Under the pieces are notes generated by a model. The model was not told where the DNA came from and did no database searches. It saw only the letters and a list, made by a program, of their open reading frames with translations. Source: an uncultured Schlesneria sp. (GTDB lineage: Bacteria > Planctomycetota > Planctomycetia > Planctomycetales > Planctomycetaceae). Taken from it: a stretch of DNA of 33,283 bases. Made by a program: the position numbers and the translations under genes. Shown here one piece after another: positions 13,270 to 28,466 of the stretch. The stretch's first letter is position 1. Every line of letters begins with the position of its first letter. The stretch lies in NCBI GenBank assembly GCA_903871875.1, contig CAIQIR010000006.1:1-33283 (forward strand), in the 5' to 3' direction.

Positions 13270-13773
13270 CTACGCAAGGCACTTTGTATTCGACCGACAG
13301 TCCTGATCGGCCGTATCTTGCGGCCCTTCAGCATGAACCGTCAGCACAGGGCATTCCGCACGCTGAACAATTTTTTCAGCAACGCTGCCAATCAGCACGT
13401 GCGACAATCCGGTGCGACCATGTGTTCCCTGGACGATCAATTCAATCTCGTGCTCTTTCGCATAGGCCAGAATTTCGTGACTCGGCTCGCCATAGCGGAT
13501 GGCTTTCACAATTCGCGAGCCTTTAATCAGAGAGTCGGCCATCTCTGCTTCCAATTGGAGTTCGGCGTCATGGACAACGACCGGAACCCGCTGTTCTTCT
13601 GGCACAAACCAGGAATCTGTCGGCCCCGAAGGCAGATGCGGGTACGACAGAACGTGCAGGACATGCAGTTCCGCATCAAGCGGACCGGCGATCGAGCAAG
13701 CGTAGTTTCTCGCCTGAACAGAAGCAGGACTGAAATCGGTGGGAAGGAGAATTCGATTGAGCGAGAGTTTCAT
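13270..13773 (-). CDS. Universal stress protein (UspA family)
   Basis: A 167-residue single-domain Usp protein. It starts with the typical ILLPTDFSPAS strand-loop and ends with the ATP-binding signature G-x2-G-x9-G-S (GTHGRTGLSHVLIGS) followed by ECPVLTV, so it probably belongs to the ATP-binding subfamily. Usp proteins support survival under starvation, oxidative and low-oxygen stress. It lies about 100 bases downstream of the 70-residue unknown gene on the same strand and may share its sigma-54 promoter. I found no separate -24/-12 element in the gap between them. Confidence 0.88.
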   Translation of the reverse strand: MKLSLNRILLPTDFSPASVQARNYACSIAGPLDAELHVLHVLSYPHLPSGPTDSWFVPEEQRVPVVVHDAELQLEAEMADSLIKGSRIVKAIRYGEPSHEILAYAKEHEIELIVQGTHGRTGLSHVLIGSVAEKIVQRAECPVLTVHAEGPQDTADQDCRSNTKCLA

Positions 13774-13876: not shown

Positions 13877-14089
13877 CTATCGGAACGTAATGGGAATGGC
13901 TCTTGAGTTCACCGATGCATGGACCTTGATCGAGCGAGCGTGGGGAGACTTGTTGCCGAGATAGACCGGCAAAAGCAACCAGCCGACTTGCAAACCTGCC
14001 CCCATGGATGCCGATTCCCGCAAATCGACCGCGGCTTCAGCCTGCAGATCTTCGGACACTGGCATTGTTGAATGAATTAGCGTGGCCAT
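13877..14089 (-). CDS. Small hypothetical protein, 70 residues
   Basis: I do not recognise this protein. From the ATG at 14089 it has 70 residues with a mildly hydrophobic middle (GLQVGWLLLPVYLG) and a basic C-terminus. Support for a real gene: AGGAA sits 6 bases before the ATG, and a strong sigma-54 -24/-12 match on the same strand (14137-14151) would start transcription about 37 bases upstream of the ATG. The frame is open upstream to another ATG at 14140, but that start would lie inside the promoter. It sits between a Usp gene and the divergent sensor kinase, suggesting a member of the same stress regulon. Confidence 0.5.
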   Translation of the reverse strand: MATLIHSTMPVSEDLQAEAAVDLRESASMGAGLQVGWLLLPVYLGNKSPHARSIKVHASVNSRAIPITFR

Positions 14090-14123: not shown

Positions 14124-14140
14124 TGGTGAGGCAGTTGCAT
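14124..14140 (+). promoter_or_regulatory. Weaker sigma-54 candidate facing the sensor kinase gene
   Basis: TGGTGAGGCAGTTGCAT has GG-N10-GC spacing with a perfect TTGCAT -12 element, but the -24 element lacks CAC. Its -12 GC is the same base pair step as the -12 of the minus-strand site. It would transcribe toward 14281 with a leader of about 130 bases. Confidence 0.35.
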
Positions 14141-14151
14141 GGTTTGTGCCG
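14137..14151 (-). promoter_or_regulatory. Sigma-54 promoter candidate for the 70-residue gene
   Basis: Read on the minus strand the sequence is CGGCACAAACCATGCA. It fits GG-N10-GC and matches GGCAC and TGCA of the consensus TGGCACG-N4-TTGCA. The start of transcription would be near 14126, leaving a short leader with a good ribosome site before 14089. Confidence 0.55.
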
Positions 14152-14280
14152 GAATTGCAGAATTTCCTCACCTGCCAGGAATTGTGAGTTTTCCCCAACG
14201 TTTCACGAAGTTCTTCTGGGGCCGACAAATCGACAACTGGCGTTTTTTTTCCAGCTGATCACTTTATAGGTAGTTAAGTC

Positions 14281-16221
14281 ATGTCCGATTCGTTGTCGCC
14301 GCATTTGGGCGGTTCGAACCCGATGGAAGACCATAGTGGCAGCGACATCCCCGTGCGGATGATTGTCGAAACCGCGATGGACGGCATCATCTCGATGGAT
14401 GCCAATCAAAACATCGTCCTCTTCAATTCCGCGGCGGAAGCAATCTTTGGATGGCGAGCCGCGGAAGTCATCGGGCAGTCGATCGACAAACTGATACCGG
14501 GCCGCTTTCGCACGGATCATCGCAGCAAAGTAGACGACTTTGGCCAAGGAAACATCGAAAAGCGACGCATGGGTACCCAACGCACGGTTATTGCAGTGCG
14601 GGCAAGCGGCGAAGAATTTCCCATTGAAGCATCGATCTCACAGACGACCGTCGGTTCAAAAAAACTGTACACAGTGATTTTACGCGACGTAACCGAAGCC
14701 GTCCGCTACCGGCAACAAATTGAGGAGCAGTCGGAAATGCTCGATCAAGTCTCTGATGCGGTGAGTGTGCTCGATCTCGAGGGACGAATCACTTACTGGA
14801 ACAACGCGGCAACGCATGTTTTCGGCTGGACATCCGCACAGGCATTAGGGCGAAACGGCCGCGAATTGCTCTTTCGTGGCGAGCCCGAAGTATTCGAAAA
14901 AATGCAACGAGAAATCATCAAACACCGTTCCTGGGTCGGAGAACTGGTGAAGGCCACTCGCGACAACAAACAGATTACGGTCGAGCATCGTCGTAGTGCT
15001 CTTCGCGATCAAATGGGTGCGATCAAAGGCTTTCTTTGCATCGATATCGACATTACCGACCGGAGAAAACGAGAGCAGGCTGCTCGACGAAGCCAGCGTC
15101 TGGAAAGCATCGGCACTTTGGCTGGTGGCATCGCTCATGACTTGAATAACGTGCTGACACCGATCCTGATGGGCGCCAAGCTTCTTAGTTCAGGACGTGA
15201 ATTGAAGAACCGACAAGGGTTGCTGGACACCATGGTCGCGAGCGCCGAACGCGGGGCCGATCTCGTCAAGCAGGTGCTGGCGTTTGCGGGAGGGATTCGC
15301 GGCGAACGCAGCCCGATCAACATGGCTCAAATGGTGCTGGAAACTCGCCGTTTGATGGAACATACCCTGCCAAAATCGATTCAAATCGAAACCGTCGTCG
15401 AAGATCGCTGCCCCAATGTCCTGGGTGATGCGACGGAGATTTCGCAAATCTTGATGAATCTGTGTATCAACGCCAGGGACGCGATGCCGGACGGCGGAAC
15501 GATCCGAATTGAGTCGGCAGCCGCAGAGCTCAATCAGAACAGCTACCAAATCAATCCCGACGCGGTCCCCGGACAGTACGTTCTGGTGAAAGTCTCCGAT
15601 ACCGGTTGCGGCATGACCGCCGATATTCTGGAGCGGATTTTTGACCCATTCTTCACAACCAAAGAGGTTGGCAAAGGCACTGGATTGGGCTTGGCGACCG
15701 TTCGAGGGATCGTCAAAAGCTACGACGGCTTCATCAATGTCTACAGCGAGCCGGACCGGGGAACCATGTTTTCGATTTATCTTCCGGCAATCCAGGCCGC
15801 AGAAGTGGCTTCCGAAGAAGAGCCAAAAATCGGTGAAGACGTCAGTCGTGGACAATCCATTTTGCTCGTCGACGACGAATCCTACATTCTTCAGATGACG
15901 ACCGCCGTCCTTGAAGCAAACGGTTATCGGGTATTGACGGCCCCGGATGGCGTAAACGCCATCTCTCAATTCAGAAAGCATCAGCACGAAATCGCCATCG
16001 TGCTGCTTGATATGATGATGCCGGGACTCGACGGAATGCAAACTCTTGAGGAGTTACGAAAAATCAATTCGGAGGTGATGGTGATCGCTTGCAGTGGACT
16101 TCGTACGATCCAACGCGAATCGGAGGTTCTCGCACGGGGTGCCAAGGCCTTTCTACCCAAGCCGTATTCCGAAGCACAGCTCTTAAAAACTCTCACCGAG
16201 GTCTTGATCAATCGATCGTGA
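14281..16221 (+). CDS. PAS-PAS hybrid sensor histidine kinase
   Basis: A 646-residue protein with no membrane span, so a cytoplasmic sensor. Order: PAS1 (about 25-145), PAS2 (about 150-262), HisKA with H286 in GGIAHDLNN, HATPase with N-box NLCINARDA (N397), SDTGCGM, and [11 protein letters not shown], then a receiver domain (about 525-642) with DDE at 531-533, phosphoacceptor D577 and K627. PAS1 has FRTDH with H80 where FixL and DosP have the heme-ligating histidine, and R101 in GTQR where FixL has its distal arginine; this pattern also occurs in non-heme PAS domains. The partner is presumably the NtrC-type regulator 192 bases downstream, with phosphorelay through the internal receiver or directly from H286. 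Confidence 0.9.
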
Positions 16222-16413
16222 TCGATCCGTCGGCCAGACACGGCAAATAGGGTGAGGTTCCCCCTTCGCGCCAACAACATCAGAAATTTCGCGGCCAATC
16301 GACAGTGGCGTGATTCTCGGCAAATTGCCGCTATGATAAGGCCTTGAGATGGTGCAGGATGTCGATCGCAAATGTGCCGCAAATGCAAGACTGTCTGAAC
16401 GGAATGGGAGATC

Positions 16414-17874
16414 ATGCCGAAACTGCTGATTGTCGACGACGACATTCTCATTCTTGAGTGCTTTCGTCACGCTTTCGCCTCTGACGATTTCCTCGTTCGA
16501 ACCACCACAAACGCCGCCGAGGCCATTTCGCTTTTCCGTGAAACGCCCTTCGACGCCGTGGTCACCGACATTCGCTTACCCGGCTCGTCTGGATTGGATT
16601 TGCTGCGAGGCCTGAAGGAAAATGACGCCCGCGTACCCGTCATCCTGATGACGGGCCATGGAACGGCAAGCTCGGCTATTGACGCCATGCGGTGGGGTGC
16701 CTTTGAATATCTCTTAAAGCCGCTGGACCTCGACATCCTTCAAACCGTGATTGACCGAGCGTTGGAAGTTTCGCGCATGTCGCGGACCCCGGCCAAAATC
16801 TCGACGGGCGAGCCCAACGAATCCCATGATGATGACCTGATCATCGGGCAATGCCCAGGCATGCAAGAGGTTTACCGACAGATTGGTCGCGTCGCCGGGC
16901 AAGATGTGACGGTACTGATTCTTGGCGAAAGCGGCACCGGAAAAGAAGTCGTCGCTCGGGCAATTTACCAGTACAGCAAGCGGGCCGAGCAAGCATTTCT
17001 GGCCATCAACAGCGCGGCCATTCCCGAGACGCTGCTGGAAAGTGAGCTCTTCGGTCATGAAAAAGGTTCGTTCACGGGAGCAGAACGAAAACGCATCGGG
17101 AAATTTGAGCAGTGCGATGGCGGTACGCTGTTCTTGGACGAGATTGGTGACATGACACCATTGACTCAAACCAAGGTTTTAAGGGTTCTGCAAGATCAGC
17201 AATTCGAACGTGTCGGCGGTAACGAACTGGTTCGCACGAACGTCCGACTGATCGCGGCGACCAGCCGCAATCTTGCCGCGATGATGGAACAAGGTTCTTT
17301 TCGTAGCGATCTCTATTATCGCCTGGGCGTTTACACAATTCATTTGCCAGCGCTTCGCGACCGAACCGGTGACTTGCCGCTCCTGGCAGATTACTTCCTT
17401 CGACGGTTCAGCCGTGAACTGGACAAGCCGGTTCATTCCATTTCCCCGGCGGCCATGGATCTGCTCAGGGCCTATCAATGGCCCGGTAACTTGCGTGAAT
17501 TGCAAAGCGTCTTGAAACACGCAGTAGTCGAAGCCACTGGCCCACTGATCCTGCCCGAGTTTCTTCCAGAAACGGTGCGAGGAAAAGGCCTGACAGCCGC
17601 TCGATCGATGCCAGCGCAACAGGCTCATGCCACGTCCGATTCTCAAGGCCAACTTGTCCAGTTCATTCAAGAACGTATTCAAGCCGGCACGGAAAATCTG
17701 TATGACGAGGTGATTCAGAACGTCGAACGAACGATGCTGACCGAGCTGATCCGCAGTGTCGAAGGAAACATCAGCCGAGCATCGACGATCCTTGGCATCT
17801 CTCGTTCGACACTGCGCACGAAATTAAGTGCTCTTGGCATTAATCTCGACCGCTCAATCAAAATCACGGACTAG
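16414..17874 (+). CDS. Sigma-54-dependent response regulator (NtrC family)
   Basis: A 486-residue activator. The receiver domain (about 1-120) has DDD at 8-10, phosphoacceptor D52 and K102. The AAA+ domain (about 142-375) has Walker A GESGTGKE (171-178), the sigma-54 contact loop as GSFTGA (218-223) where GAFTGA is usual, Walker B LFLDE, and the R-finger region FRSDLYYRL. A Fis-type helix-turn-helix is at the end (NISRASTILGISRSTLRTKL). Phosphorylated activators of this type bind enhancers and open sigma-54 promoters by ATP hydrolysis. The paired kinase is directly upstream and -24/-12 sites flank the module, so nearby genes are the likely targets. The A-to-S change in the loop occurs in functional relatives. 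Confidence 0.93.
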   Translation: MPKLLIVDDDILILECFRHAFASDDFLVRTTTNAAEAISLFRETPFDAVVTDIRLPGSSGLDLLRGLKENDARVPVILMTGHGTASSAIDAMRWGAFEYLLKPLDLDILQTVIDRALEVSRMSRTPAKISTGEPNESHDDDLIIGQCPGMQEVYRQIGRVAGQDVTVLILGESGTGKEVVARAIYQYSKRAEQAFLAINSAAIPETLLESELFGHEKGSFTGAERKRIGKFEQCDGGTLFLDEIGDMTPLTQTKVLRVLQDQQFERVGGNELVRTNVRLIAATSRNLAAMMEQGSFRSDLYYRLGVYTIHLPALRDRTGDLPLLADYFLRRFSRELDKPVHSISPAAMDLLRAYQWPGNLRELQSVLKHAVVEATGPLILPEFLPETVRGKGLTAARSMPAQQAHATSDSQGQLVQFIQERIQAGTENLYDEVIQNVERTMLTELIRSVEGNISRASTILGISRSTLRTKLSALGINLDRSIKITD

Positions 17875-17911
17875 ATCTGCGATCTGACGCGAGCGCATTC
17901 AGCCGATTGGT

Positions 17912-17927
17912 CGGCACAACTGGTGCC
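17912..17927. repeat. Inverted repeat after the regulator gene
   Basis: CGGCAC-AACT-GTGCCG type dyad (6-bp arms, spacer of 4-5 bases), 38 bases after the regulator stop codon. It also fits GG-N10-GC on both strands, so it could be read as a sigma-54 site. The perfect symmetry without a T tract makes a weak terminator or operator at least as likely. Confidence 0.4.
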
Positions 17928-17986
17928 GCTTCACCTACTCCGCTTTCCGCGATCACCTGACCAATGCGCTCGATTCGTAAACGCGT

Positions 17987-18066
17987 CTGGCAGCAATTGC
18001 CAGCTTCACGCGTCCACCGCATACGTCAATCACCTTGAGAACAATCGAGTCTCTAAGCAGCAATTG
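17987..18066. promoter_or_regulatory. Candidate enhancer sites for the NtrC-type regulator
   Basis: The 10-bp sequence GCAGCAATTG occurs twice, 67 bases apart (17990-17999 and 18057-18066). Each copy is inside a partial dyad: TGGCA-N5-TGCCA for the first and AGCA-N7-TGCT for the second. Paired dyads upstream of a -24/-12 promoter are typical of NtrC-family enhancers, but these lie about 600-680 bases from the promoter at 18672, farther than usual. Confidence 0.3.
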
Positions 18067-18671
18067 TGCTTGTCGTATGCCACGGAGAATGCGCATACGT
18101 GTTCCTCCTTGTTGTTGGCGGGAAGGTGTCCATTCCTTCCTCCCTGATCCAGGAAGACCATGACCGATGCAGACATGGTGAGATCGTCAACCGGCAGGTT
18201 TGGCACGTTTCATTCCCTGACCCCGAATTCCGGATCGTTGTTCTCGATGTTGGCGCGGCACATCCCTGCTTTTTTCAATCGACGCATCAATCACGGGGAT
18301 TTTGACTCGTCAACGCAGATGTGGAAGTCCACATCGTCACTTCGATGATTGGTACGACTGCTCCAGCGCCATCACTTTTTACCGGTCAACAATTCGCCGG
18401 GTGGAAGAAAACCGCCATTCATCAACTGAGTCACACCCGAAAAACTCGCCGACAACGGGAGCGTCAATCGTTTCGATAAATTCGGTTGAATGATCCCCTA
18501 TTGAGTGGCATTGCACGAAACCGGTCAGCGTTCGATCGACAACGATGCGGCGATTAAAGGACCGATACGAAAGAGAGACCGCACGCGAATCGGCGCATGC
18601 TGTGGTTTGATTTCGCCGCCACCTCTAAAAGCACCCTATCGAAACACCACCACAAATAATCGCTGGCATTT

Positions 18672-18687
18672 GGGCGCGGCAATTGCT
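18672..18687 (+). promoter_or_regulatory. Sigma-54 promoter candidate for the cbb3 oxidase operon
   Basis: GGGCGCGGCAATTGCT has GG (18673-18674), ten bases, GC (18685-18686), and matches GG-C-CG and TTGCT of the consensus TGGCACG-N4-TTGCW. Transcription would start near 18698, giving a leader of about 260 bases before the first cytochrome gene. It is the best -24/-12 match in this intergenic region, which directly follows a sigma-54 activator gene. Confidence 0.5.
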
Positions 18688-18960
18688 TTAGCACCGCTGC
18701 GGAAGCCTTGACAGCAGCCTTTCACGGTGAAACGCCGCCGACCGAACGGTCTGAGAATGAGATCTCGTGGAAGTCCCCGGTGTCTAGGATCCGTGTCGCC
18801 GCGTGAGAGACGATCAGGTTGCCGCTGGCCTGTTCGGGAGGAAGGCCGTCATTCGACGCAGATTCACCCGTTCGATCGCGCGTACTCGTCAAAACAACAG
18901 AGGTCCATGTTGTGGAATGGCCAAGCCAGTCCATCCATTCCCCACGGCAAGCGAGATGAA

Positions 18961-20040
18961 ATGAATCTTCAGAATCAACGCAGTCATCAGTTTCCTGTCA
19001 CCCACTTGCGCCTGACCTGTGCATCCTGGATTGTTGCCGCGATGGCGGTTCTTTCCGGTTGCCAGAGAGCCCAGCCGCCAGAGTTCTCTTCGAGCGACGC
19101 GGCGCAAGCGCTCCCTGCGGAAATGCGTGACGCCGTACGGAAGGAATTAGCGGTCCATGTCGGCACGTTTCTCCAGCCAAAACTGCTGGCTGCCGCGGAA
19201 GACCCTCATCCATCATTGTCGCGAGGCCAGGCAGTCTATCAGCAACGTTGTGAGCAATGTCACGGCGTCAGCGGAGACGGCAAAGGGATCGCCAGCGAGT
19301 TTCTGTATCCTCGCCCACGTGACTATCGAAAGGGCGTCTTCAAATTCACCTCAACCCCCTACGGATATCGACCACAGCGTGATGACTTGCTGAAGACGGT
19401 TCGCCAGGGCATCAAAGGGACCTCGATGCCGGGGTTTGCCTTACTGCCCGAGTCAGACCAACAGGCCGTTGTCGACTACGTGATCATGTTAAGCCGCCGC
19501 GGCGAACTTGAAAGTCAGATCGTCGACATGGCCGACACGGACAGCGCCGTCAATGCGGAAGATGTTCAGTCAGAACTCGTTCCGGCTGTCCTTTCGCGCT
19601 GGACGGAAGCGGACGCTTCCGAGGTCTTTCCGGCCTCGCCCCCACCACGTTTCACCTCCGCCAATGTGGAGCGTGGCAAGATCGCCTTCTTAACAAAAGG
19701 TTGCTCGAAGTGTCACGGTGAAGATGGACGTGGTCAGACCGCGGACAATCGTGGTGCTGACGCCTGGGGCCACCAGACCCGCGCAGCGGATCTGACCTCC
19801 GGCATGCTGCACGGAGGCAATCGCCCGATCGACATCTACCGACGAATTTACAACGGCATCAATGGAACTCCGATGCCCGGCTTCGCGAATGTTCTCAAGG
19901 ACAATCCGGAAACCGTATGGGACTTAGTGTCCTACGTCCTGTTCGTCACAAACCGCCGCCGCCAAGGCGAGATCCCCACGCCCGGAGCCATCAAGCCCTA
20001 TGTTCCGCTGCCGACAGCTTCGTCGAACACGGCTCCCTGA
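18961..20040 (+). CDS. Diheme cytochrome c lipoprotein (CcoP-like catalytic part)
   Basis: A 359-residue exported protein. The ATG at 18961 gives a signal peptide ending in the lipobox LSGC, so the mature protein is probably a lipid-anchored lipoprotein. Two c-type heme motifs, CEQCH and CSKCH, each sit in a cytochrome c domain with a downstream methionine (GTSMPGF and GTPMPGF). In ordinary cbb3 oxidases the diheme subunit CcoP carries its own membrane helix; this protein has none beyond the lipid anchor. As first gene of the oxidase operon it most likely delivers electrons to CcoO/CcoN. The open frame extends upstream to 18727 but that part reads as non-coding. Confidence 0.85.
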   Translation: MNLQNQRSHQFPVTHLRLTCASWIVAAMAVLSGCQRAQPPEFSSSDAAQALPAEMRDAVRKELAVHVGTFLQPKLLAAAEDPHPSLSRGQAVYQQRCEQCHGVSGDGKGIASEFLYPRPRDYRKGVFKFTSTPYGYRPQRDDLLKTVRQGIKGTSMPGFALLPESDQQAVVDYVIMLSRRGELESQIVDMADTDSAVNAEDVQSELVPAVLSRWTEADASEVFPASPPPRFTSANVERGKIAFLTKGCSKCHGEDGRGQTADNRGADAWGHQTRAADLTSGMLHGGNRPIDIYRRIYNGINGTPMPGFANVLKDNPETVWDLVSYVLFVTNRRRQGEIPTPGAIKPYVPLPTASSNTAP

Positions 20041-20126
20041 AGAATGCTCTGACCGCATCGTCAACACCGCTTTTTTGTCCGAATTGTCTTCTGTGCCACC
20101 GTGTACCGTTGGAAAGGATCGCTCTT

Positions 20127-20786
20127 GTGACCCTCGACGATAAAAAAGAACAAGAACTCAATAGCCTTCGTGCACGGTTGCACGAACTCGAATTAGAGTT
20201 AAGCGAACCAGCGCCGGCCAGCCGGTTTCCGCCGCCGGGATTCTACAGTGAATACTACGCCGCCACCGGCTTCCTGCTGGGCATGTTCGGCGCCGCGATG
20301 AGTCTCTTGGTGAACATTGTCGCCGCACCTATTTTCGGCAAGTCACCTTTGGAACTGATCCGTGTGTATTTGACGTTTCCGCTGGGCGAGACCGCCCTGA
20401 AATTGTCCGTCGATACAAAACAGATCTACTCCGGCGGCGACGGCGTGATCCTGGCCATAGGATGCTGCCTGTACCTTGGCACAGGGATGATCCTGGGTGT
20501 CCCCTTCTTCGTCGTGCTGGTCAAGTTGACAGAGAATAAGAGCACCACGATTCGTCTCGTCGTGGCCACTGTTCTGTCGGTCATCCTGTGGGCCATCAAC
20601 TTCGGGGCAATTCTTTCCTGGCTGCAACCCTGGCTGGTTGGAGGCAACTGGATTACGGACCCGGCCGTGCTGCCGCGTTCTGTCGGGCTGGTCACACATC
20701 TCGTGTTTGGGTGGACGCTGGCACTGCTCTATCCCTGGGTCAAGTTCCGCAAGGACGACTACCCCCACATTCAATCCACGAAATAA
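20127..20786 (+). CDS. Unknown polytopic membrane protein of the oxidase operon
   Basis: A 219-residue protein from the GTG at 20127, with AAGGA about 10 bases upstream. An N-terminal helical stretch (LNSLRARLHELELELSE) with coiled-coil character is followed by about five hydrophobic segments (roughly residues 45-70, 108-135, 142-168, 190-208 and a weaker one). I do not recognise the family and see no heme or metal motif. It lies between the diheme lipoprotein and ccoN with 86 and 41 bases on either side, so it is very likely cotranscribed and may be an accessory or assembly subunit of this oxidase. Confidence 0.75.
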   Translation: MTLDDKKEQELNSLRARLHELELELSEPAPASRFPPPGFYSEYYAATGFLLGMFGAAMSLLVNIVAAPIFGKSPLELIRVYLTFPLGETALKLSVDTKQIYSGGDGVILAIGCCLYLGTGMILGVPFFVVLVKLTENKSTTIRLVVATVLSVILWAINFGAILSWLQPWLVGGNWITDPAVLPRSVGLVTHLVFGWTLALLYPWVKFRKDDYPHIQSTK

Positions 20787-20827
20787 ACTTGTCGAATATC
20801 CCAGAAATTCAACTCAGGAACACCCGA

Positions 20828-22261
20828 ATGACTTCGGCAACGAATTCATCGATCGATGGTCAGCAATGTCCACGACATGAAGATTTAGTAGAAGATCGAC
20901 TTGTACTCTGGTACTTCGTCGCGGCGTTGACGTTTATGACGATCTCGATGCTGGCAGGGATCCTGATGGGCCTACAGTTGCTTCGTCACAATCCTCTTCC
21001 GGCGATCGAAGTCCTGTCGCCGGGACGTTGGCGAATGGTGCACACCAACGCGATCGCCTATGGCTTTCTGGCCAATGCGTTTTTGGGAATCATGCATTGG
21101 GTGATTCCTCGCCTGACGTTACGACCGGTGCTAAGCAATCCTTTGTCGTACCTGATTTTCTTCGCCTGGCAAGCGGTCGTGCTGGCGACAGCAGTGGGCA
21201 TCCTGTTCGGTCAGGCCCAGGGAGTGGAATGGGGTGAAACACCGGTCTGGATCGATCCCTTCGCGTTGCTCGGACTGTTGCTCGTTGCCATCAATTTTGG
21301 GGCTCCGATTATCAACGCACCCGGCCCGCTATATGTCACGCTTTGGTACTACCTGGCCGCGCTGGTCTGGACATTTCTGACCTACGCGATGGGGAACCTG
21401 CTTCCCGAATACTTCGTCTGCGGTTCCAGCGCCGGAGCCGTGGGTGGACTATTCATTCATGACCTGGTCGGTCTGTTCGTCACGCCGCTGGGTTGGGGCA
21501 TGATGTACTACTTTGTTCCGATTCTGCTGAAACGTCCAATGTGGAGTCATGGACTTTCGCTGGTCGGTTTCTGGGGACTGGCGTTCTTCTATCCGCTGCA
21601 AGGGATTCACCACTTCCTTTACACACCGATTCCCATGTTTCTGCAATACGGGGCCGTGCTTTCGACGATCGCCCTGGAATTTGTGGTGCTGACCGTCATC
21701 GTGAATTTCGTCGGCACCTTGTACGGCACCGGCGACCTCGTGCTTCGCAATCTGCCGTTGCGTTATTTCTACACGGGAATTCTGTTCTACTTCTTGACTT
21801 GTCTGCAGTGCGCGTTGCAAGTCACCCTGACATTCCAAGCCTTGATCCACTTTACCGATTGGGTTGTCGGCCACGCTCACATGGTCATGTTCGGTGTGTT
21901 CAGCCTCTGGCAGCTGGGCGTCATGACGTATCTGGTGCCCCGAATCCTCAAGACCGAATGGTACAACCCCAAGTGGTGCGAATGGCACTACTGGGCCTCT
22001 AGCGGCGGGCTGCTGGTCATGGCCAGCGATCTGATTTTGGGTGGCTTATTTCAAGGCTGGTCGTGGGCGGCCCTGCAACCATGGGATGCCTCGATCCATC
22101 TTTCGATCCCCTTCTGGTCAGTTCGTCTCGTGGCGGGTCTGGTGATGTTCGCGGCTCAGATTCTGTTCGTCGTTAACTTCTATCTAACGTGGAGAAAATC
22201 AACACGATCGTTCTCCGTAACGGTCCCGGCAACAGGAGCCGCGCCTGCGTTTGGTCAGTGA
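20828..22261 (+). CDS. ccoN: cbb3-type cytochrome c oxidase subunit I
   Basis: A 477-residue protein with about 12 membrane helices, the catalytic subunit of a C-type heme-copper oxidase. Ligands are complete: H72 (MVHTNA) and H351 for low-spin heme b, H349 (VGHAHM) for heme b3, and H211, H261 and H262 (GIHHFLY) for CuB. Y255, six residues before H261, matches the tyrosine that is cross-linked to a CuB histidine in cbb3 enzymes. These oxidases reduce O2 with high affinity and pump protons. The ATG at 20828 is chosen because AGGA lies 9 bases upstream; the longer open frame overlaps the preceding gene. Confidence 0.95.
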   Translation: MTSATNSSIDGQQCPRHEDLVEDRLVLWYFVAALTFMTISMLAGILMGLQLLRHNPLPAIEVLSPGRWRMVHTNAIAYGFLANAFLGIMHWVIPRLTLRPVLSNPLSYLIFFAWQAVVLATAVGILFGQAQGVEWGETPVWIDPFALLGLLLVAINFGAPIINAPGPLYVTLWYYLAALVWTFLTYAMGNLLPEYFVCGSSAGAVGGLFIHDLVGLFVTPLGWGMMYYFVPILLKRPMWSHGLSLVGFWGLAFFYPLQGIHHFLYTPIPMFLQYGAVLSTIALEFVVLTVIVNFVGTLYGTGDLVLRNLPLRYFYTGILFYFLTCLQCALQVTLTFQALIHFTDWVVGHAHMVMFGVFSLWQLGVMTYLVPRILKTEWYNPKWCEWHYWASSGGLLVMASDLILGGLFQGWSWAALQPWDASIHLSIPFWSVRLVAGLVMFAAQILFVVNFYLTWRKSTRSFSVTVPATGAAPAFGQ

Positions 22262-22349
22262 TTCACAAAAACTTGTTCGTGCAATAGCCAAAACGCCTGT
22301 CCGATCCACGCCTGGATCCCGTCACGTTGGCCATCGAGGTACTTAAGTC

Positions 22350-23048
22350 ATGTTCGAGCGAAAATCTGGAATTCTGTTAATTGCTGGTCTTGGTTTTTTC
22401 GCGTTTGCGTTTCTCTCAAACGCCGTTGTGCCGATGTTGATGTATCGACATTTGCCGGAAAAAACGGCGGAACAGCTCGTAAACGGAAATTTGCGATACC
22501 AATTTGAGGATCTGGCCCAACGTTTTCCCCAGGCTTTCGAAAAAGTCTATGGAGTTCCGCCGGCCGATCCCGAACAGGCGGCCAAATGGTATGACGAGCA
22601 TTTGGCAAAGGCGCTTCGGCTGGGACGTACCGTTTACACCGCGGAAGGCTGTTGGCACTGCCACAGCCAGTTCGTCCGGCCAGTTTCGAACGAAGACCGC
22701 CGATGGGGCCCCGTCGCCAAGTCCTGGGAATACCAAAACGAACTTCAGCGTCCCGTCATGTTTGGAACACGTCGCGTCGGGCCAGACCTCAGTCGCGAAG
22801 GGGGACGCCGTTCAAACGATTGGCACGCGGTTCACTTTTTTGACCCGGAAACGCTCTCGAAAGATTCACCCATGCCGCGCTATCCATGGCTTTTCGAAGG
22901 GCGACCCGACAAACCCAATGATCGCGGTTTGGCTCTCTTAACCTACGTGCAATGGCTCGGCTCATGGCACGAAACGTACCCCTATTATGAAGACTATGTG
23001 GTCACCCCGATCAAAACGGCACCTGCGGCAGAAGTTGCTGCCGAGTAA
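22350..23048 (+). CDS. ccoO: cbb3-type cytochrome c oxidase subunit II
   Basis: A 232-residue monoheme membrane cytochrome. An N-terminal membrane anchor (about residues 7-30, including FFAFAFLSNAVVPML) is followed by a periplasmic domain with heme motif CWHCH (101-105), the family signatures SQFVRP and GPDLSREGGRRSNDWH, and axial M175 in DSPMPRYPWL. CcoO passes electrons from CcoP to CcoN. It sits 88 bases after ccoN as usual. Compared with proteobacterial CcoO it carries an insertion between the anchor and the heme motif (about residues 35-95), which may contact the lipoprotein partner. Confidence 0.93.
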   Translation: MFERKSGILLIAGLGFFAFAFLSNAVVPMLMYRHLPEKTAEQLVNGNLRYQFEDLAQRFPQAFEKVYGVPPADPEQAAKWYDEHLAKALRLGRTVYTAEGCWHCHSQFVRPVSNEDRRWGPVAKSWEYQNELQRPVMFGTRRVGPDLSREGGRRSNDWHAVHFFDPETLSKDSPMPRYPWLFEGRPDKPNDRGLALLTYVQWLGSWHETYPYYEDYVVTPIKTAPAAEVAAE

Positions 23049-23105
23049 GACCGCGATAACGGGTCGGTGATTGCCACAACGCATTTCTCCTGAGGATCAC
23101 AAAAG

Positions 23106-23405
23106 ATGTCAGCACATCGAACACATTGGTTAACCAAGATTGTTTTCGCCTTGATTTTGACGCCGGCCATCCTGGGGTTCGCGAATAAATTCCTCGACCT
23201 GGTCCTGGTCGTACAAGGTGATGAGGACGGTGCATTCGCCGTCACACCGATTGTGAATTATCTGCTGGCAACGGCCGGATTCGTCTGCTTGTTGCTGTGG
23301 ACTGCGGCGCGAGGAGCATTTCAAGATCTCGACGGGCCCAGCCGGGTAATGTTCGAGAATGAACAACGGTTCGAAAAACTCGCCCGCGAAACGGCCTTAG
23401 ACTAA
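23106..23405 (+). CDS. Small two-helix membrane protein of the oxidase operon
   Basis: A 99-residue protein with two membrane spans (about residues 8-30 and 48-66) and a charged C-terminal tail (FENEQRFEKLARE). GAGGA lies about 9 bases before the ATG. I do not recognise the family. Its place between ccoO and a single-span protein with spacings of 57 and 14 bases indicates an accessory subunit, in the position where proteobacterial operons carry ccoQ, but the sequence does not look like CcoQ. Confidence 0.75.
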   Translation: MSAHRTHWLTKIVFALILTPAILGFANKFLDLVLVVQGDEDGAFAVTPIVNYLLATAGFVCLLLWTAARGAFQDLDGPSRVMFENEQRFEKLARETALD

Positions 23406-23419
23406 CGGAGAATTGTCAG

Positions 23420-23599
23420 ATGCAACCCAATACAAATTCGGATTCGCCTGAGCAGGATCTCCGCTACCACACTTACCTCAGCCACGTGATTCCGTGGTAT
23501 GTGCGAATGATGTGGGTGGTATTTTGGATCTTTGCGATCGCTTACGCCATCTCGTACTTCATTCCCGCATTTCAAACAGAAATCATCTCTCCGCCATGA
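23420..23599 (+). CDS. 59-residue single-span protein, possible separate CcoP membrane anchor
   Basis: A short gene with GGAG 8 bases before the ATG and a stop that overlaps the next start by ATGA. The protein has a polar N-terminus with DLRYHTYLSH, then IPWYVRMMWVVFWIFAIAYA as the start of one membrane helix ending in ISYFIPAF. A histidine-containing polar stretch, then a proline-tryptophan boundary, then one helix resembles the N-terminal anchor domain of CcoP (FixP_N). That domain is otherwise missing from this operon, where the diheme part is a lipoprotein. I infer a split CcoP; the alternative is a CcoQ- or CcoH-like small subunit. Confidence 0.7.
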   Translation: MQPNTNSDSPEQDLRYHTYLSHVIPWYVRMMWVVFWIFAIAYAISYFIPAFQTEIISPP

Positions 23600-25791
23600 A
23601 GCATGTGACTCCTCTCTGCGTCGAGCCGTCGCAATCGGTCGCTTGCGATTACTGCGGACTACCGACGGCACGCGCGGCGAGCACGGACGAACCCACCTAC
23701 TGCTGTTACGGTTGCCGCTTTGCTGCCGCCATGGCCACTCCGCTGGCCGAGTCAGACCGAGTCATGACGCCGGCGAGCGCGATCGGGTTGTCCGTATTTT
23801 TCACCATGAACGTGGTCATGTTGACCATGGCCCTTTGGAGCTATGCGGAAGCGGCCCAATCGCCATTCGAACTGGCACTGCGAAGCTTTCTACGCTACGG
23901 CGCACTCGCGTTTGCCCTGCCGGTTCTGCTCTTGCTGGGACGACCGCTGATCAGCCATGCCATCGTGGGCATGCGCAACGGGATCTTTACCACCGATCTT
24001 TTGCTGGCGATTGGCGTGATCGCATCGTTCGCATTGTCGGCCGTCAATACCTGGCGCGCGTCGGGCCATGTCTATTTTGAAGTCGGGTGCGTGATCCTGG
24101 TCCTGGTCACCATCGGACGCTGGCTGGAAGCCACAGGCCGTTCGTTGGCCTCGCGTGAACTCGACAATCTCGAGCGTCTTTTGCCGGAGACGATTCGCGT
24201 CGTCCAAAACGGCGTTGATGTGCAATTACCGATTTCGCAAGTTCGCATTGGAGACTGCATTCGCGTTCTTGCTGGAGAACGAGTCCCGCTTGACGGCCAG
24301 ATCATCAAAGGAAACGCCGTCGTCGACGAACAGTTTTTCACGGGGGAAAGTACTCCCGTAGAAAAACATCCCGGAGCGCCACTCTTGGGCGGAAGCCTGA
24401 ATCTGGATGGTGTGATCACCCTGACGGTCACGGCCCTGCCAGGAACAGGGGCCTTGGGAAAACTGATTGCGGCGGTCAAAGCAGCGCGACTCTCCAAGGG
24501 ACGATTCCAGTTATTGAGCGATGCCTGGTCCAAGCGATTCTTTCCCTTGATCAGCATCGTGGCGATTGGCACGTTCTTCTTCCACGGTCTGCGCACCGAT
24601 TGGGATCAGGGACTGCTGACAGCCTTGTCGGTCATCCTGATCTCGTGTCCTTGCGCACTCGCCCTGGCGACTCCCACAGCCATTTGGACCGCCCTGGGTA
24701 CCGCTGCGTCAAAAGGCGTGTTGTGCCGCAGCGGCGCAGCCTTAGAGGCGCTCGCATCGGTGCAGGCGATTCGCTGGGACAAAACCGGCACGTTGACCAC
24801 AGGATCACCGCGTGTCGAGCGACTGATTTGTGAAGATCCCACGACGCGATCAGAGATCGAAGAATTGGCATTTGGTTTGACGAGTTCCTCCAATCATGTG
24901 TTCTCGCTCGCCATCCGTGAATACTTGGCCGAGTCTGATTCCTCCGCTCAGGACACCGACTTGCACGTCGAAACCGTCGCCGGACGCGGACTTCGTGGGT
25001 ATTCCATGAATCCGGGCACAATTGTTCTCGGGTCCGTATCTTGGATGAAAGACAACGAACTGGAATGGGGCGATCAACTTTCCGCCGTTCTCAACGAGGA
25101 AACCATTCTGGCCCGGTCCCTGGTCGCGATCGGATTTGCGGGCAAAGTCAGGGGAATCTTCTTACTGAAGGAAACCATCCGCCCCGAAAGCCGCGAAGCC
25201 ATTTTGAACTGCGAACGGTTGGGTCTGAATCAAGTCATCCTTACCGGAGATCACGCAGCTCGAGCCAAAGCCATCGGTCAGATTTTTCACTTGCCGGTGG
25301 AATCTGAATTGCTTCCAGAAGCCAAGCTGAGGGCGATTCGTGCGGCACACCAACAGTACGGGATGGTCGCCATGTGCGGGGATGGTCTGAACGATTCGCC
25401 GGCACTCGCCGCGGCGGACGTTGGTATTTCCCTGGGCTGTGGCGCCGATGTCAGTCGAGACGCTTCCGACATTTGTTTGTTGTCATCCAATCTGTGCCTC
25501 GTTCCCTGGATGATCGAATTCTCGCGCCGTACCGTACGCATCATCCAATGGAATCTGGCTTGGTCATTTGGTTACAACGCACTGGGTGTCACCGTCGCCG
25601 CCACGGGTTACCTCCATCCGGCACTGGCCGCCGGAATCATGGTTTTGAGTAGCCTGATGGTCCTGGCCAATTCGCTTCGCCTGTCGCCCGACTCCCTTTT
25701 TGCAACGGCGTCTGCCCGCGGCACAAGCCCCGCGTTAACGGACCTTTCCAACGACCATCCGGTCGGACATGTCGCGAAGGAGAGTACATGA
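23596..25791 (+). CDS. ccoI: Copper-translocating P1B-type ATPase (CcoI/FixI-like)
   Basis: A 731-residue copper pump. The N-terminus has CDYC and CCYGC (Cys 17, 20, 36, 37, 40), the cysteine-rich domain typical of FixI/CcoI, but no GMTCxxC heavy-metal domain after it. Eight membrane helices are expected. Motifs: TGES (249-252), CPC (351-353), phosphorylated D395 in DKTGT, GDGLNDSPA, then GYN and MVLSSLMVLANS in the last helices, which together indicate Cu(I) specificity. The usual HP dipeptide of the nucleotide-binding domain is H434-V435 here. CcoI exports copper needed for CuB assembly in cbb3 oxidases. It overlaps both neighbours by ATGA. Confidence 0.93.
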   Translation: MKHVTPLCVEPSQSVACDYCGLPTARAASTDEPTYCCYGCRFAAAMATPLAESDRVMTPASAIGLSVFFTMNVVMLTMALWSYAEAAQSPFELALRSFLRYGALAFALPVLLLLGRPLISHAIVGMRNGIFTTDLLLAIGVIASFALSAVNTWRASGHVYFEVGCVILVLVTIGRWLEATGRSLASRELDNLERLLPETIRVVQNGVDVQLPISQVRIGDCIRVLAGERVPLDGQIIKGNAVVDEQFFTGESTPVEKHPGAPLLGGSLNLDGVITLTVTALPGTGALGKLIAAVKAARLSKGRFQLLSDAWSKRFFPLISIVAIGTFFFHGLRTDWDQGLLTALSVILISCPCALALATPTAIWTALGTAASKGVLCRSGAALEALASVQAIRWDKTGTLTTGSPRVERLICEDPTTRSEIEELAFGLTSSSNHVFSLAIREYLAESDSSAQDTDLHVETVAGRGLRGYSMNPGTIVLGSVSWMKDNELEWGDQLSAVLNEETILARSLVAIGFAGKVRGIFLLKETIRPESREAILNCERLGLNQVILTGDHAARAKAIGQIFHLPVESELLPEAKLRAIRAAHQQYGMVAMCGDGLNDSPALAAADVGISLGCGADVSRDASDICLLSSNLCLVPWMIEFSRRTVRIIQWNLAWSFGYNALGVTVAATGYLHPALAAGIMVLSSLMVLANSLRLSPDSLFATASARGTSPALTDLSNDHPVGHVAKEST

Positions 25792-26549
25792 CTCCCTGGT
25801 GGCTGTTAGCGTTTAGCGGACTGTTGGGTTCGGCACATTGCGTCGGCATGTGCGGCGGTATCGCCGCCATGATTGGACTGAACACGCAATCGCTGCTGGG
25901 AAATTTGAAATCGCAAATCGTCTTCAGCGCGGGACGTCTGATGAGTTACGCCACGCTGGGCGCACTGGCCGGGTTTGCCGGAAAGCGGCTGTTGGATTCG
26001 GTGCCTCAAATCATCAATGTGCCCGCAATTCTCTGCCTATTCTCTGGCCTGTTTCTGATCCGAGAAGGGTTGCTCGCGACGGGACTGTGGAAGCGTGCTG
26101 TCACCGGCACCTCAGTAACAGGTTGTTTGATACGTCCCTTATTCAGTGCCTTGATCAACACACCCCGACCTTCTCGAGCCTTGGTGGCCGGCCTGGCAAC
26201 AGGACTGTTACCTTGTGGTCTGGTCTATGCCTTCGTCGCCCTGGCCGCCAGTTCCCACGATCTGTTGCAGGGGTTGTTCACAATGCTGGCATTTGGCGCC
26301 GGCACGATTCCCATGATGGTTTTCACCGGGTGCGGTACATCGCTCTTGAATTGGAATGCTCGACAACGGTTCTGGAAAGCATCCGCGTGGTCCGTTATCT
26401 TGACCGGTATCCTGACTTTGGGCCGTGGTGTGGCATTTCTGAATTTCTCGGGAGAGACCGCACCGCCCGCCTGTCCTTTCTGTTCCGCGAAGACTTGTCC
26501 GTCCACCACCATGGTCGAGAGTCAGCTCATGGAAAAAAGGAATCGATGA
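25788..26549 (+). CDS. TauE/SafE-DsbD_2 type membrane protein, probable oxidase assembly factor
   Basis: A 253-residue protein with about six membrane helices. It carries the paired motifs GSAHCVGMCGG at the N-terminus and GLLPCGLVY in the middle, typical of the DsbD_2-like (PF13386, often named sulfite exporter TauE/SafE) family found beside cbb3 and copper genes. The cysteines may bind copper or shuttle reducing power. A C-terminal CPFCSAKTCP segment adds three more cysteines. It overlaps the ATPase stop by ATGA and is itself overlapped by the next gene. Likely role: copper handling or disulfide chemistry during oxidase maturation, inferred from context. Confidence 0.85.
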   Translation: MTPWWLLAFSGLLGSAHCVGMCGGIAAMIGLNTQSLLGNLKSQIVFSAGRLMSYATLGALAGFAGKRLLDSVPQIINVPAILCLFSGLFLIREGLLATGLWKRAVTGTSVTGCLIRPLFSALINTPRPSRALVAGLATGLLPCGLVYAFVALAASSHDLLQGLFTMLAFGAGTIPMMVFTGCGTSLLNWNARQRFWKASAWSVILTGILTLGRGVAFLNFSGETAPPACPFCSAKTCPSTTMVESQLMEKRNR

Positions 26550-27025
26550 TGAACGGCATCGCCAGCCAACTACCTGCACGACCGATGGAAAAACCGCCTC
26601 AGGTCACGGCAACGACTCCTGCGACCAAGCGCTCCTTTTGGAGTCGCTATTCGACCCTGATCAACTTTTGGCTCGATGTCGCCCTGCTAATCCTGTTTTT
26701 GGTTCAGGCCTGGATATTTGCCGTCTTGAGACTCGTGTTTCCGCGCGGTGCCGGTCCCGAATGGAAACTGTGGAACATCACGGCGCTGGAGTGGTCAGAA
26801 ACACTTTGTAACGTGTTCTGCGTGTTCGCATTCGCCATTCTGCTGCATGTCATGTTTCATTGGTCGTGGATCTGCGGAGTCATCTCAACCCGGTTCCTGC
26901 GTCGAAAACCGGGCCAAGACGACGGCACGTTGACGTTGCTTGGCGTTTGTCTGATCGTGGGACTGCTGCACCTCTTCATGGGGGGCATTCTGTTGGCCAT
27001 GGTCGGACTTGTCGGCCCGAAATGA
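26546..27025 (+). CDS. DUF4405-like membrane protein
   Basis: A 159-residue protein with three membrane helices (about residues 33-60, 84-112 and 132-156). Histidines inside helix 2 (LLHVMFHW) and helix 3 (LLHLF) fit the pattern of DUF4405 proteins, which resemble small b-type cytochromes. The ATG at 26546 overlaps the upstream stop (ATGA) and has AAGGA 5 bases before it; a second ATG follows directly. It is the last gene of the oxidase operon. Heme binding and a role in electron delivery or assembly are inferences. Confidence 0.7.
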   Translation: MMNGIASQLPARPMEKPPQVTATTPATKRSFWSRYSTLINFWLDVALLILFLVQAWIFAVLRLVFPRGAGPEWKLWNITALEWSETLCNVFCVFAFAILLHVMFHWSWICGVISTRFLRRKPGQDDGTLTLLGVCLIVGLLHLFMGGILLAMVGLVGPK

Positions 27026-27278
27026 TGTGGTTGGTTCTCCTCACATGATTCCGCCAAGTGCTCCAGTCGATGTTCGTTCACCTTTCCCCAGCCATCCCGA
27101 TCAGGAGAGTTGCCTCAGGCTCGTCCAGTGACATGCGAACGAGAATTGATCACGTGGCAACTCAGTAGCCGCTCGTCCGCCCTCTACAGTCCTTGTCTTA
27201 AGAACGATCGAACCTCTAAATCCCGAAAATGTCAACCGAGCACCGCTCTCACTTACTTCCGTACAAAATCACGGTCCA
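27026..27278. other. Intergenic region upstream of the second universal stress gene
   Basis: No credible gene. It contains an 8-bp inverted repeat, GAGTTGCC (27107-27114) and GGCAACTC (27156-27163), 41 bases apart and 115-170 bases upstream of a sigma-54 promoter match. That is a normal position for an activator site, though it could also be the base of an RNA hairpin. Confidence 0.4.
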
Positions 27279-27294
27279 TGGCACAGGCTGTGCA
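27279..27294 (+). promoter_or_regulatory. Sigma-54 promoter for the second universal stress gene
   Basis: TGGCACAGGCTGTGCA matches the consensus TGGCACG-N4-TTGCA at all but two fixed positions, with GG at 27280-27281 and GC at 27292-27293. Transcription would begin near 27305, leaving a leader of about 90 bases before the ATG at 27397. It is the best sigma-54 match in the window. Confidence 0.65.
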
Positions 27295-27396: not shown

Positions 27397-27885
27397 ATGA
27401 GCCAATATGACGTCGTGCTACATGCCACTGATTTCTCAAAGGATGCGGATCAGGCGTTCTCCGTCGCGTGCGCCATCGCGCGGGATCACTTTGCGACGCT
27501 GGTCGTCGTGCATGTTGTCCCGCCGGAAACGCCGTTGGACTGCGATTCAAATTCAAATATCCTCGTCGGGGATCAAGCGACGGTCGCCCCCTACCGACAA
27601 CAATTTGAACGCCTGCGTCAAATCGCAGATGGAATTCCCATTAGCTTTCGGCTCGTCAAAGGCTATCCTATCGGGACGATTTTGAACGTGGCCCACGAAG
27701 AAAGCGCGGACGTGATCGTCATTGCCTCGGAGTTCAATGAGGGACAAGCATTCCAGCTCCACAGCGGAATTGCCGAGGGAGTGCTCAGACAGGCCCATTG
27801 TCCCGTCTGCTGTTTTCGTCTTCCCACAAGTCAGCTCAGCCCGAATACCCGACGTGCGGCTCGATGCAACACGCTGCTTAACTGA
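27397..27885 (+). CDS. Universal stress protein, non-canonical nucleotide site
   Basis: A 162-residue Usp-fold protein beginning YDVVLHATDFSKDADQAF and ending with QAHCPVCCF. The usual G-x2-G-x9-G-S/T nucleotide motif is absent: the corresponding segment reads ASEFNEGQAFQLHSGIAEG. It may therefore not bind ATP, unlike the other Usp in this window. The start has only a weak ribosome site. A strong -24/-12 element lies about 105 bases upstream, so expression probably depends on sigma-54 and an activator. It is set apart from the oxidase operon by about 370 bases. Confidence 0.85.
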   Translation: MSQYDVVLHATDFSKDADQAFSVACAIARDHFATLVVVHVVPPETPLDCDSNSNILVGDQATVAPYRQQFERLRQIADGIPISFRLVKGYPIGTILNVAHEESADVIVIASEFNEGQAFQLHSGIAEGVLRQAHCPVCCFRLPTSQLSPNTRRAARCNTLLN

Positions 27886-28025: not shown

Positions 28026-28466
28026 ATGAACGCACGATCGATCTGGAAATGGACTGTTCCACTGACACTGGGTCTCGGTTTTGGTGCCGCGATGCTCTTC
28101 CCTTCTTCCCAACAAGTGACTCCCGCTGCTGAGGAAAAGCCGGCAACCCTTCAGGCATTCATGCGACAGAAGCTCGAGGCTTCATCTCAAATCCTCGAGG
28201 GTCTGACCGTTGAAGATGCCGAGCTGATTAAAAAGGGAACCACAAAGATCCTGGAGATGAGCAAAGTCGAGCTGTGGAATGTTCTCACCGATGCGGACTA
28301 TCGCGAGTTCAATCGGGATTTTCGCTCGAGCATGCGAAAACTGGATCAGGCAGCGACAGAAAAGAACTTTGATAACGCGATTCTTCAATGGATCGATGCG
28401 ATGAAGGGCTGCGTGGAGTGTCACAAATACGTTCGTAGCGAACGCGTCAAACTGAAATCACCTTAA
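28026..28466 (+). CDS. Exported class II (cytochrome c'-like) monoheme cytochrome
   Basis: A 146-residue protein. The N-terminus is a signal peptide or anchor (WKWTVPLTLGLGFGAAML). The mature part is almost entirely helical and ends with one heme motif, CVECH, about 12 residues from the C-terminus, the position seen in four-helix cytochromes c' and c-556. Such proteins bind NO or carry electrons in the periplasm. GGAAGGAG lies 7 bases before the ATG, a strong ribosome site. No sigma-54 element precedes it; a TTCACA hexamer at 27942 could be a -35 box but the -10 match is poor. A role with the oxidase upstream is plausible, not shown. Confidence 0.8.
   Translation: MNARSIWKWTVPLTLGLGFGAAMLFPSSQQVTPAAEEKPATLQAFMRQKLEASSQILEGLTVEDAELIKKGTTKILEMSKVELWNVLTDADYREFNRDFRSSMRKLDQAATEKNFDNAILQWIDAMKGCVECHKYVRSERVKLKSP

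Follow-up and report, generated by a model that had tools for sequence, protein, structure and literature searches.

What controls a high-affinity oxidase and the universal stress protein (Usp) genes around it in an uncultured planctomycete? The question is raised by a 33,283-nucleotide stretch of DNA from an uncultured Schlesneria sp. (hereafter the window; contig C6 of the 7.6-Mb genome G000, completeness rating 99.99%), in which a hybrid histidine kinase and an NtrC-type response regulator adjoin Usp genes and a cbb3 oxidase operon. Among public records that carry a genus name, those nearest to the regulator belong to Schlesneria, as expected for a planctomycete. The arrangement is best explained, with a probability of roughly 64%, as a low-oxygen switch acting through a heme-PAS kinase, the NtrC-type regulator and sigma-54. 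The kinase, a probable oxygen sensor, and the adjoining activator would probably switch on the stress-protein genes and perhaps also the oxidase. In the proposed circuit, the kinase would sense oxygen (or redox state or nitric oxide) via a FixL/DosP-like heme PAS domain and pass phosphate to the adjacent regulator, which would bind an enhancer that reads by eye as a tandem TGG-N10/11-CCA and mostly lies 75–107 bp upstream of a -24/-12 element, and would activate the sigma-54 polymerase. The targets would be the leftward operon of a 70-residue protein and Usp1, the operon of Usp2, further Usp operons on other contigs, and the cbb3 operon, either directly or from its long leader.

A sequence-only reading of this DNA had proposed sigma-54 control of stress and oxidase genes from three -24/-12 matches. 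These matches, the hybrid kinase and the NtrC-type regulator were confirmed at the same positions by sequence scan and Pfam (Table 1), and the genome contains one match to rpoN. We scored the sites with weights that were assigned by hand from the known consensus ahead of the tests and later left unaltered, using the best 16-mer per 420 bp in random stretches of the own genome as the null. The site before Usp2 scored 31.5 (P = 0.014), the leftward site 29.5 (P = 0.059), and the site before the oxidase operon, the weakest of the three, 29.0 (P = 0.075). Counts of the consensus showed no excess over chance: the window held 19 matches with up to two mismatches versus 16.7 ± 4.4 in shuffles (35 of 100 shuffles reached 19), and the genome-wide scan proposed with the original idea gave 222 matches with up to one mismatch, fewer than the 325 of the backwards pattern. 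Match counting was therefore rejected as support in window and genome alike, and the three matches alone cannot carry the argument; the sites become credible because relatives and an enhancer motif back them.

Sense sites scoring at least 29.5 were found within 420 bp upstream of 7 of the 16 Usp matches in the own genome, all of which were kept, including second genes of operons; antisense sites were found at 1 of 16 (binomial P = 2e-5). Six of the seven end 103–129 bp before the matched domain, and for the seventh, that of the window's Usp1 behind the 70-residue gene, the distance is 377 bp. Promoters of this type also stand before Usp operons on contigs C10, C91, and C155. A predicted sigma-54 regulon is thus firmly seen at this genome's Usp promoters. 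Of 67 Usp matches from six further genomes, 30 were tested, with 8 sense and 2 antisense sites at the same threshold (P = 3e-4 with the own-genome null). Beside regulator orthologues, Usp2 relatives carry TGGCAC[A/G]CGCTGTGCG 95–162 bp before the called start in G001, G002, G005, and G006, and TGGCACGGGGCCTGCT in G007; given this recurrence, the credibility of the window's Usp2 site as a promoter is good. The idea of a self-contained module failed on the Usp promoters of the three other contigs, on a second, 73% identical copy of the regulator on C10, and on five sister genomes with a different NtrC regulator beside cbb3; the original proposal lives on in changed form, as a wider sigma-54 regulon, probably for low oxygen.

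The enhancer motif, AaAtTTtnCCAnCTGGnnAAAAanCGnCCA, was obtained by Gibbs sampling (six seeds, best kept) from 16 promoters that lie outside the window, nine of them from the own genome and seven from relatives. The training promoters were chosen for having a -24/-12 site and mostly adjoin Usp genes; those of L129 and L133 are orthologous to each other, and L136_ATP was omitted by choice. Twelve of the 16 training copies lie 75–107 bp upstream of -24. The top match in the whole window, on both strands, is the held-out candidate 85 bp upstream of the leftward -24/-12 element, where GG-N10-GC and an upstream enhancer are thus combined; the second best lies in the regulator–oxidase gap. The kinase locus of G008, also outside the training set, is laid out alike, with a kinase, a divergent homologue of the 70-residue gene, a -24/-12 element and, at a distance of 104 bp, an enhancer scoring 22.0. 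Furthermore, in G001, G002, G005, and G006 the kinase and a Usp1 relative are divergent from each other, the latter behind CGGCACACGTCATGCA, the counterpart of the window's leftward site. As a predicted promoter the leftward site has strong credibility, with Usp1 and the 70-residue gene as its probable target.

Counts of a short enhancer pattern (up to one mismatch) are a weak test, and spacing is a stronger one. The own genome gave five matches versus four backwards, four of the five at three places on C10 (two Usp promoters and one aldolase promoter). Among 30 examined of the 59 matches in 15 genomes, 8 had a sigma-54 site of at least 29.5 within 55–115 bp, compared to 1.7% at random places; the pattern itself was derived from the training promoters, and five of the eight are training promoters, leaving three new ones (L272, L286, L298; 3/25, P = 0.008). 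Scattered palindromes resembling CCANCTGGCCAAANTTTGGCCA were seen several times on contig C1 of G003 and are perhaps a separate repeat family. The helix-turn-helix of 11 of the 12 regulators compared, the own C10 copy included, contains GISRSTLR, and because it is common to both, either the window's regulator or its C10 copy could bind the enhancer.

Contig C10 carries, at 36–94 kb (L236, L237, L238), a DosR-like island with eight Usp matches, Hsp20, a zinc alcohol dehydrogenase, an APH+AAA_33 protein, an M50-CBS protein, export-type genes, and a class I aldolase behind an enhancer and a -24/-12 element. The window's single-CxxCH protein has relatives in G001, G002, G003, G005, G006, G007, and G018, encoded close to Usp, kinase or cbb3 genes.

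The oxidase operon encodes the CcoN, CcoO, and CcoP components of a cbb3 oxidase. Its gene order is unlike ccoNOQP, with a two-domain cytochrome c and a protein without Pfam family preceding CcoN (18961–20786). Upstream regions were compared in 17 genomes (own included) of the 21 with a CcoN of at least 63% identity; G011, G013, G025, and G039 were omitted for a contig end, a partial match, or a first gene not located. Sense sites of at least 31 occurred in 8 of the 17 (G001, G002, G005, G006, G008, G014, G019, G033), 110 to 414 bp from the matched start, compared to antisense sites in 1 of 17 and a frequency of 1.4% in random 420-bp stretches; counting four close relatives once gave 5 of 14 (P = 1e-6). 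Sigma-54 control of cbb3 is therefore likely in part of the genus. G010 scored 29.5, next to 29.0 in the window. In G007, a site of 31.5 follows the kinase and regulator and is followed on one strand by Usp2, Usp1, the gene of the CxxCH protein, and cbb3. The operon of G018 is preceded by a CxxCH-protein gene, and 124 bp upstream of the matched portion of that gene there is a perfect site, which falls within the longest called reading frame.

The window's second candidate enhancer lies 253 bp upstream of the oxidase site, and G010 has a candidate 226 bp upstream of its cbb3 site. The TGGCATTGCA element downstream of the window's candidate, a 10-mer with 20 occurrences in 2.77 Mb of scanned DNA, is probably inactive. 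This enhancer was not found in the 700 bp before cbb3 in G001, G002, G005, G006, G007, G008, G014, G017, and G018, or upstream of the cbb3 sites in G019 and G033, so the window-type regulator is not claimed for these operons; its point of action in G007 would be the Usp2 promoter. A decayed Usp gene in the gap 17875–18960 was also considered and rejected, as no tblastx or blastn match at 1e-3 was obtained against the collected loci (eight overlapping own-genome loci omitted). We regard the window's oxidase site as a candidate of moderate credibility, and sigma-54 control of the window's own operon, from this site or elsewhere, as moderately supported. The original proposal is supported for the Usp genes, which are linked to the NtrC-type pair, and for cbb3 in a substantial share of the genus; its weakest site is the one before cbb3 in the window itself.

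Table 1. Features of the window (positions in the window; E-values from Pfam unless stated otherwise).
Feature	Position	Strand	Evidence or remark
Usp1, universal stress protein	13270..13773	-	Pfam Usp 1.1e-30
70-residue protein gene, first behind the leftward promoter	13877..14089	-	weak homologue in 1 of 58 other genomes (G008, E 4.6e-4)
Leftward -24/-12 element, CGGCACAAACCATGCA	14136..14151	-	sequence scan; enhancer 85 bp upstream
Enhancer candidate of the leftward promoter, TAAAGTGATCAGCTGGAAAAAAAACGCCAG	14237..14266	-	score 22.0, P 2e-5 per position
Hybrid histidine kinase, PAS-PAS-HisKA-HATPase-REC	14281..16221	+	Pfam; no strong hydrophobic segment
NtrC-type response regulator: REC, AAA+, Fis helix-turn-helix	16414..17874	+	Pfam 1.2e-25, 6.4e-70, 6.5e-9
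Second candidate enhancer, regulator–oxidase gap, 253 bp upstream of the oxidase site	18389..18418	+	second best motif match in the window, 19.4, P 3e-5 per position
TGGCATTGCA, 87 bp downstream of the second candidate enhancer	18506..18515	+	resembles -24/-12 minus ~6 bp of spacer; speculative, post hoc
Candidate -24/-12 element of the oxidase operon, GGGCGCGGCAATTGCT	18672..18687	+	score 29.0, weak alone
Two-domain cytochrome c, CcoP-like, first operon gene	18961..20040	+	Pfam Cytochrom_C, Cytochrome_CBB3; lipoprotein-like N-terminus by eye
Conserved operon protein, probably membrane	20127..20786	+	no Pfam family
CcoN	20828..22261	+	COX1 3.7e-57
CcoO	22350..23048	+	FixO 2.2e-32
Small operon protein	23106..23405	+	conserved; no Pfam family
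59-residue protein, CcoQ- or CcoP-N-like by size and place	23420..23599	+	conserved
CcoI-type P-type ATPase	23596..25791	+	E1-E2_ATPase 7.6e-45
DsbD_2-family protein, probably oxidase maturation	25788..26549	+	4.3e-40
Conserved protein, last in operon	26546..27025	+	conservation
Sequence resembling a degenerate enhancer, 108 bp upstream of the Usp2 site	27150..27170	+	by eye; no score in motif scan
-24/-12 element of Usp2, TGGCACAGGCTGTGCA	27279..27294	+	scan, score; similar sites upstream of Usp2 relatives in G001, G002, G005, G006, and G007
Usp2	27397..27885	+	Pfam Usp 1.3e-16
Single-CxxCH protein	28026..28466	+	no Pfam family; cytochrome c'-like label from C-terminal CVECH

Alternatively, the pair may control only the Usp genes and their neighbours through sigma-54, its adjacency to cbb3 being incidental and cbb3 having another promoter or activator. 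We consider this somewhat unlikely. It would fit the low score of the window's cbb3 site and the situation in G001, G002, G005, and G006, where the pair lies away from cbb3, beside Usp genes, and cbb3 stands with a different NtrC regulator. However, that regulator has no orthologue in G000, G007, and G010 (best 43–44%), the genomes in which the window-type pair was seen adjoining cbb3, and candidate enhancers are present in the regulator–cbb3 gap of G000 and G010. Adjacency cannot be read in G008, G011, and G013, whose cbb3 contigs break off close to the operon or within it. The different regulator is divergent from cbb3 in G001, G002, G005, G006, and G014 (the G014 match carries stops); an NtrC-type gene is also divergent from the operon in G034. 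As the other regulator is absent from the three genomes in which the window-type pair was seen adjoining cbb3, the simplest interpretation, drawn from few lineages, is that the operon retained its sigma-54 promoter and exchanged the activator. At the loci with the other regulator, an upstream palindrome, TTGTGACAAATCCGCACAC...TGTTGTGACA, was seen by eye in L122, L123, L124, and L125 and is partly kept in L128.

The domains of the pair point to the signal and the output of the predicted low-oxygen switch. The two-PAS region of the kinase matched DosP (2.8e-17) and its PAS1 matched FixL (1.9e-15) as the best solved relatives, with a histidine and an arginine aligned. His80 and Arg101 correspond to DosP/FixL residues that we take to be the proximal heme ligand and the oxygen-binding arginine. 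Both, and His286, are invariant in 12 of 12 sequences (the window's and 11 near-full-length orthologues of 58–65% identity), while the neighbours of His80 and Arg101 vary. PAS1 is thus likely a FixL/DosP-like heme PAS sensor. The regulator has a REC domain, an AAA+ sigma-54 interaction domain, and a Fis-type helix-turn-helix. Beside the regulator in G008 (L136, 7371–7386), CGGCATTGGAGTTGCC was observed 113 bp before a P-type-ATPase-like gene.

It is unlikely, in our view, that the pair senses another signal (nitric oxide, carbon monoxide, redox state or general stress) and that Usp induction is a general stress response. PAS domains take many ligands, the kinase has a second PAS domain, and heme PAS proteins also bind nitric oxide and carbon monoxide. 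Nevertheless, the candidate targets are a high-affinity oxidase and Usp genes of the hypoxia-regulon kind, and the best solved relatives, DosP and FixL, are named oxygen or nitrogen-fixation sensors.

Control of cbb3 by FNR or FixK was not supported, as no clear CRP/FNR protein and no box at the operon were found. A genome profile search with PF13545 (CRP/FNR helix-turn-helix; PF00325 was not searched) gave two matches, both below the cut-off, with 14 of 14 controls positive. The FNR box TTGAYN4RTCAA, with up to one mismatch, was absent between 17175 and 24033; near-matches numbered 11 versus 4.1 expected (2 of 100 shuffles reached 11), none of them upstream of cbb3. That the -24/-12 matches are chance occurrences in an ordinary neighbourhood under sigma-70 promoters is very improbable, since, despite the lack of excess in the counts, their strength, strand, and position recur before Usp and cbb3 genes in several relatives, an enhancer occurs at similar spacing, and a sigma-70 consensus scan gave 1 site versus 6.8 expected.

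Several observations weigh against the low-oxygen switch as drawn. Two training copies of the enhancer are weak (C155, C10_768+) and four are off the usual spacing, and the 59 short-pattern matches stand against 39 backwards. The motif scan gave no scoring enhancer for the Usp2 site; in relatives, 22 of 30 Usp upstream regions have no strong site, and a clear enhancer lies less than 150 bp from a strong site in 1 of 30. At cbb3, the window has a weak site at a distance of 253 bp from the enhancer, with a defective-looking element in the canonical position; 9 of 17 genomes have no site of at least 31, and G007, G017, G018, G031, G034, G055, and G042 score below 24 in 420 bp. G003 has the kinase and regulator and no cbb3 match, and beside its kinase the -24/-12 score is only 28.0 and the enhancer score only 14.9. 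The His/Arg identity is no proof of heme, and the regulator loop, GAFTGA in NtrC-type sigma-54 activators, reads GSFTGA in 10 of 12 sequences, including the window's, and GAFTGA in G007 and G003.

As a tentative extension, which we hold at somewhat less than even odds, sigma-54 with interchangeable NtrC-type activators may be the main low-oxygen switch in these planctomycetes. A FixL-like kinase would drive a DosR-like Usp/Hsp20 regulon via a dedicated enhancer, and cbb3 would keep its sigma-54 promoter with activators swapped between lineages (in five species a regulator that has a palindrome of its own; in G000, G007, and G010 the FixL-like pair). If true, this would provide a concrete planctomycete oxygen-response circuit whose promoter, enhancer, regulator, and sensor residues are specified, show that a FixL-type sensor and a Usp/Hsp20 programme can be coupled directly to sigma-54, and supply a natural example of a single operon exchanging its activator.

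Parts of the proposed circuit resemble known systems. In the rhizobial FixLJ-FixK2 system, a heme-PAS kinase controls cbb3 oxidase at low oxygen, as predicted here; FixJ, however, is not NtrC-type and acts via the CRP/FNR protein FixK2, of which no counterpart over the cut-off was found here. The DosRST dormancy regulon of mycobacteria comprises Usp, Hsp20, CBS, and phosphotransferase-type genes, families also present on contig C10, whereas DosR is NarL-type and works without sigma-54, in contrast to the NtrC-type regulator and sigma-54 here. In a literature search that left subscription papers mostly outside, we recognised no account of sigma-54-controlled cbb3 in planctomycetes and nothing linking NmpR-type control with Usp sigma-54 promoters in this group; Studholme and Dixon reportedly worked on Pirellula activators.

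In Planctomycetia, Usp (COG0589, UspA) genes are enriched behind predicted sigma-54 promoters (PMC12316311), consistent with our Usp results; the available text of that study gives a class-level list, with 0 matches to cytochrome or oxidase terms and no Usp regulator or enhancer named. Sigma-54 rather than FNR control of cbb3 had been called notable, but its novelty is reduced by a published precedent, NmpR of Myxococcus xanthus (PMC11841059). The NmpR enhancer, GCGCA-N5-TGCGC as described there, differs from the TGG/CCA enhancer here and was rejected for the window, with 17 matches (up to two mismatches) versus 31 expected and none of them in the 500 bp that precede each of the three sites. 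The NmpRSTU sensor is a separate, heme-dependent globin-coupled kinase upstream (PMC11841059), whereas here the predicted PAS sensor is within the hybrid kinase. According to the available text, NmpR is NtrC-like, depends on sigma-54, and targets a P-type ATPase/cbb3 operon, Usp, and its own genes, with hypoxic induction shown for the target mxan_4236 (PMC11841059). The two systems thus share an NtrC-like regulator with a hybrid kinase, sigma-54 promoters, and cbb3/P-type ATPase and Usp genes as targets, which are predicted targets here.

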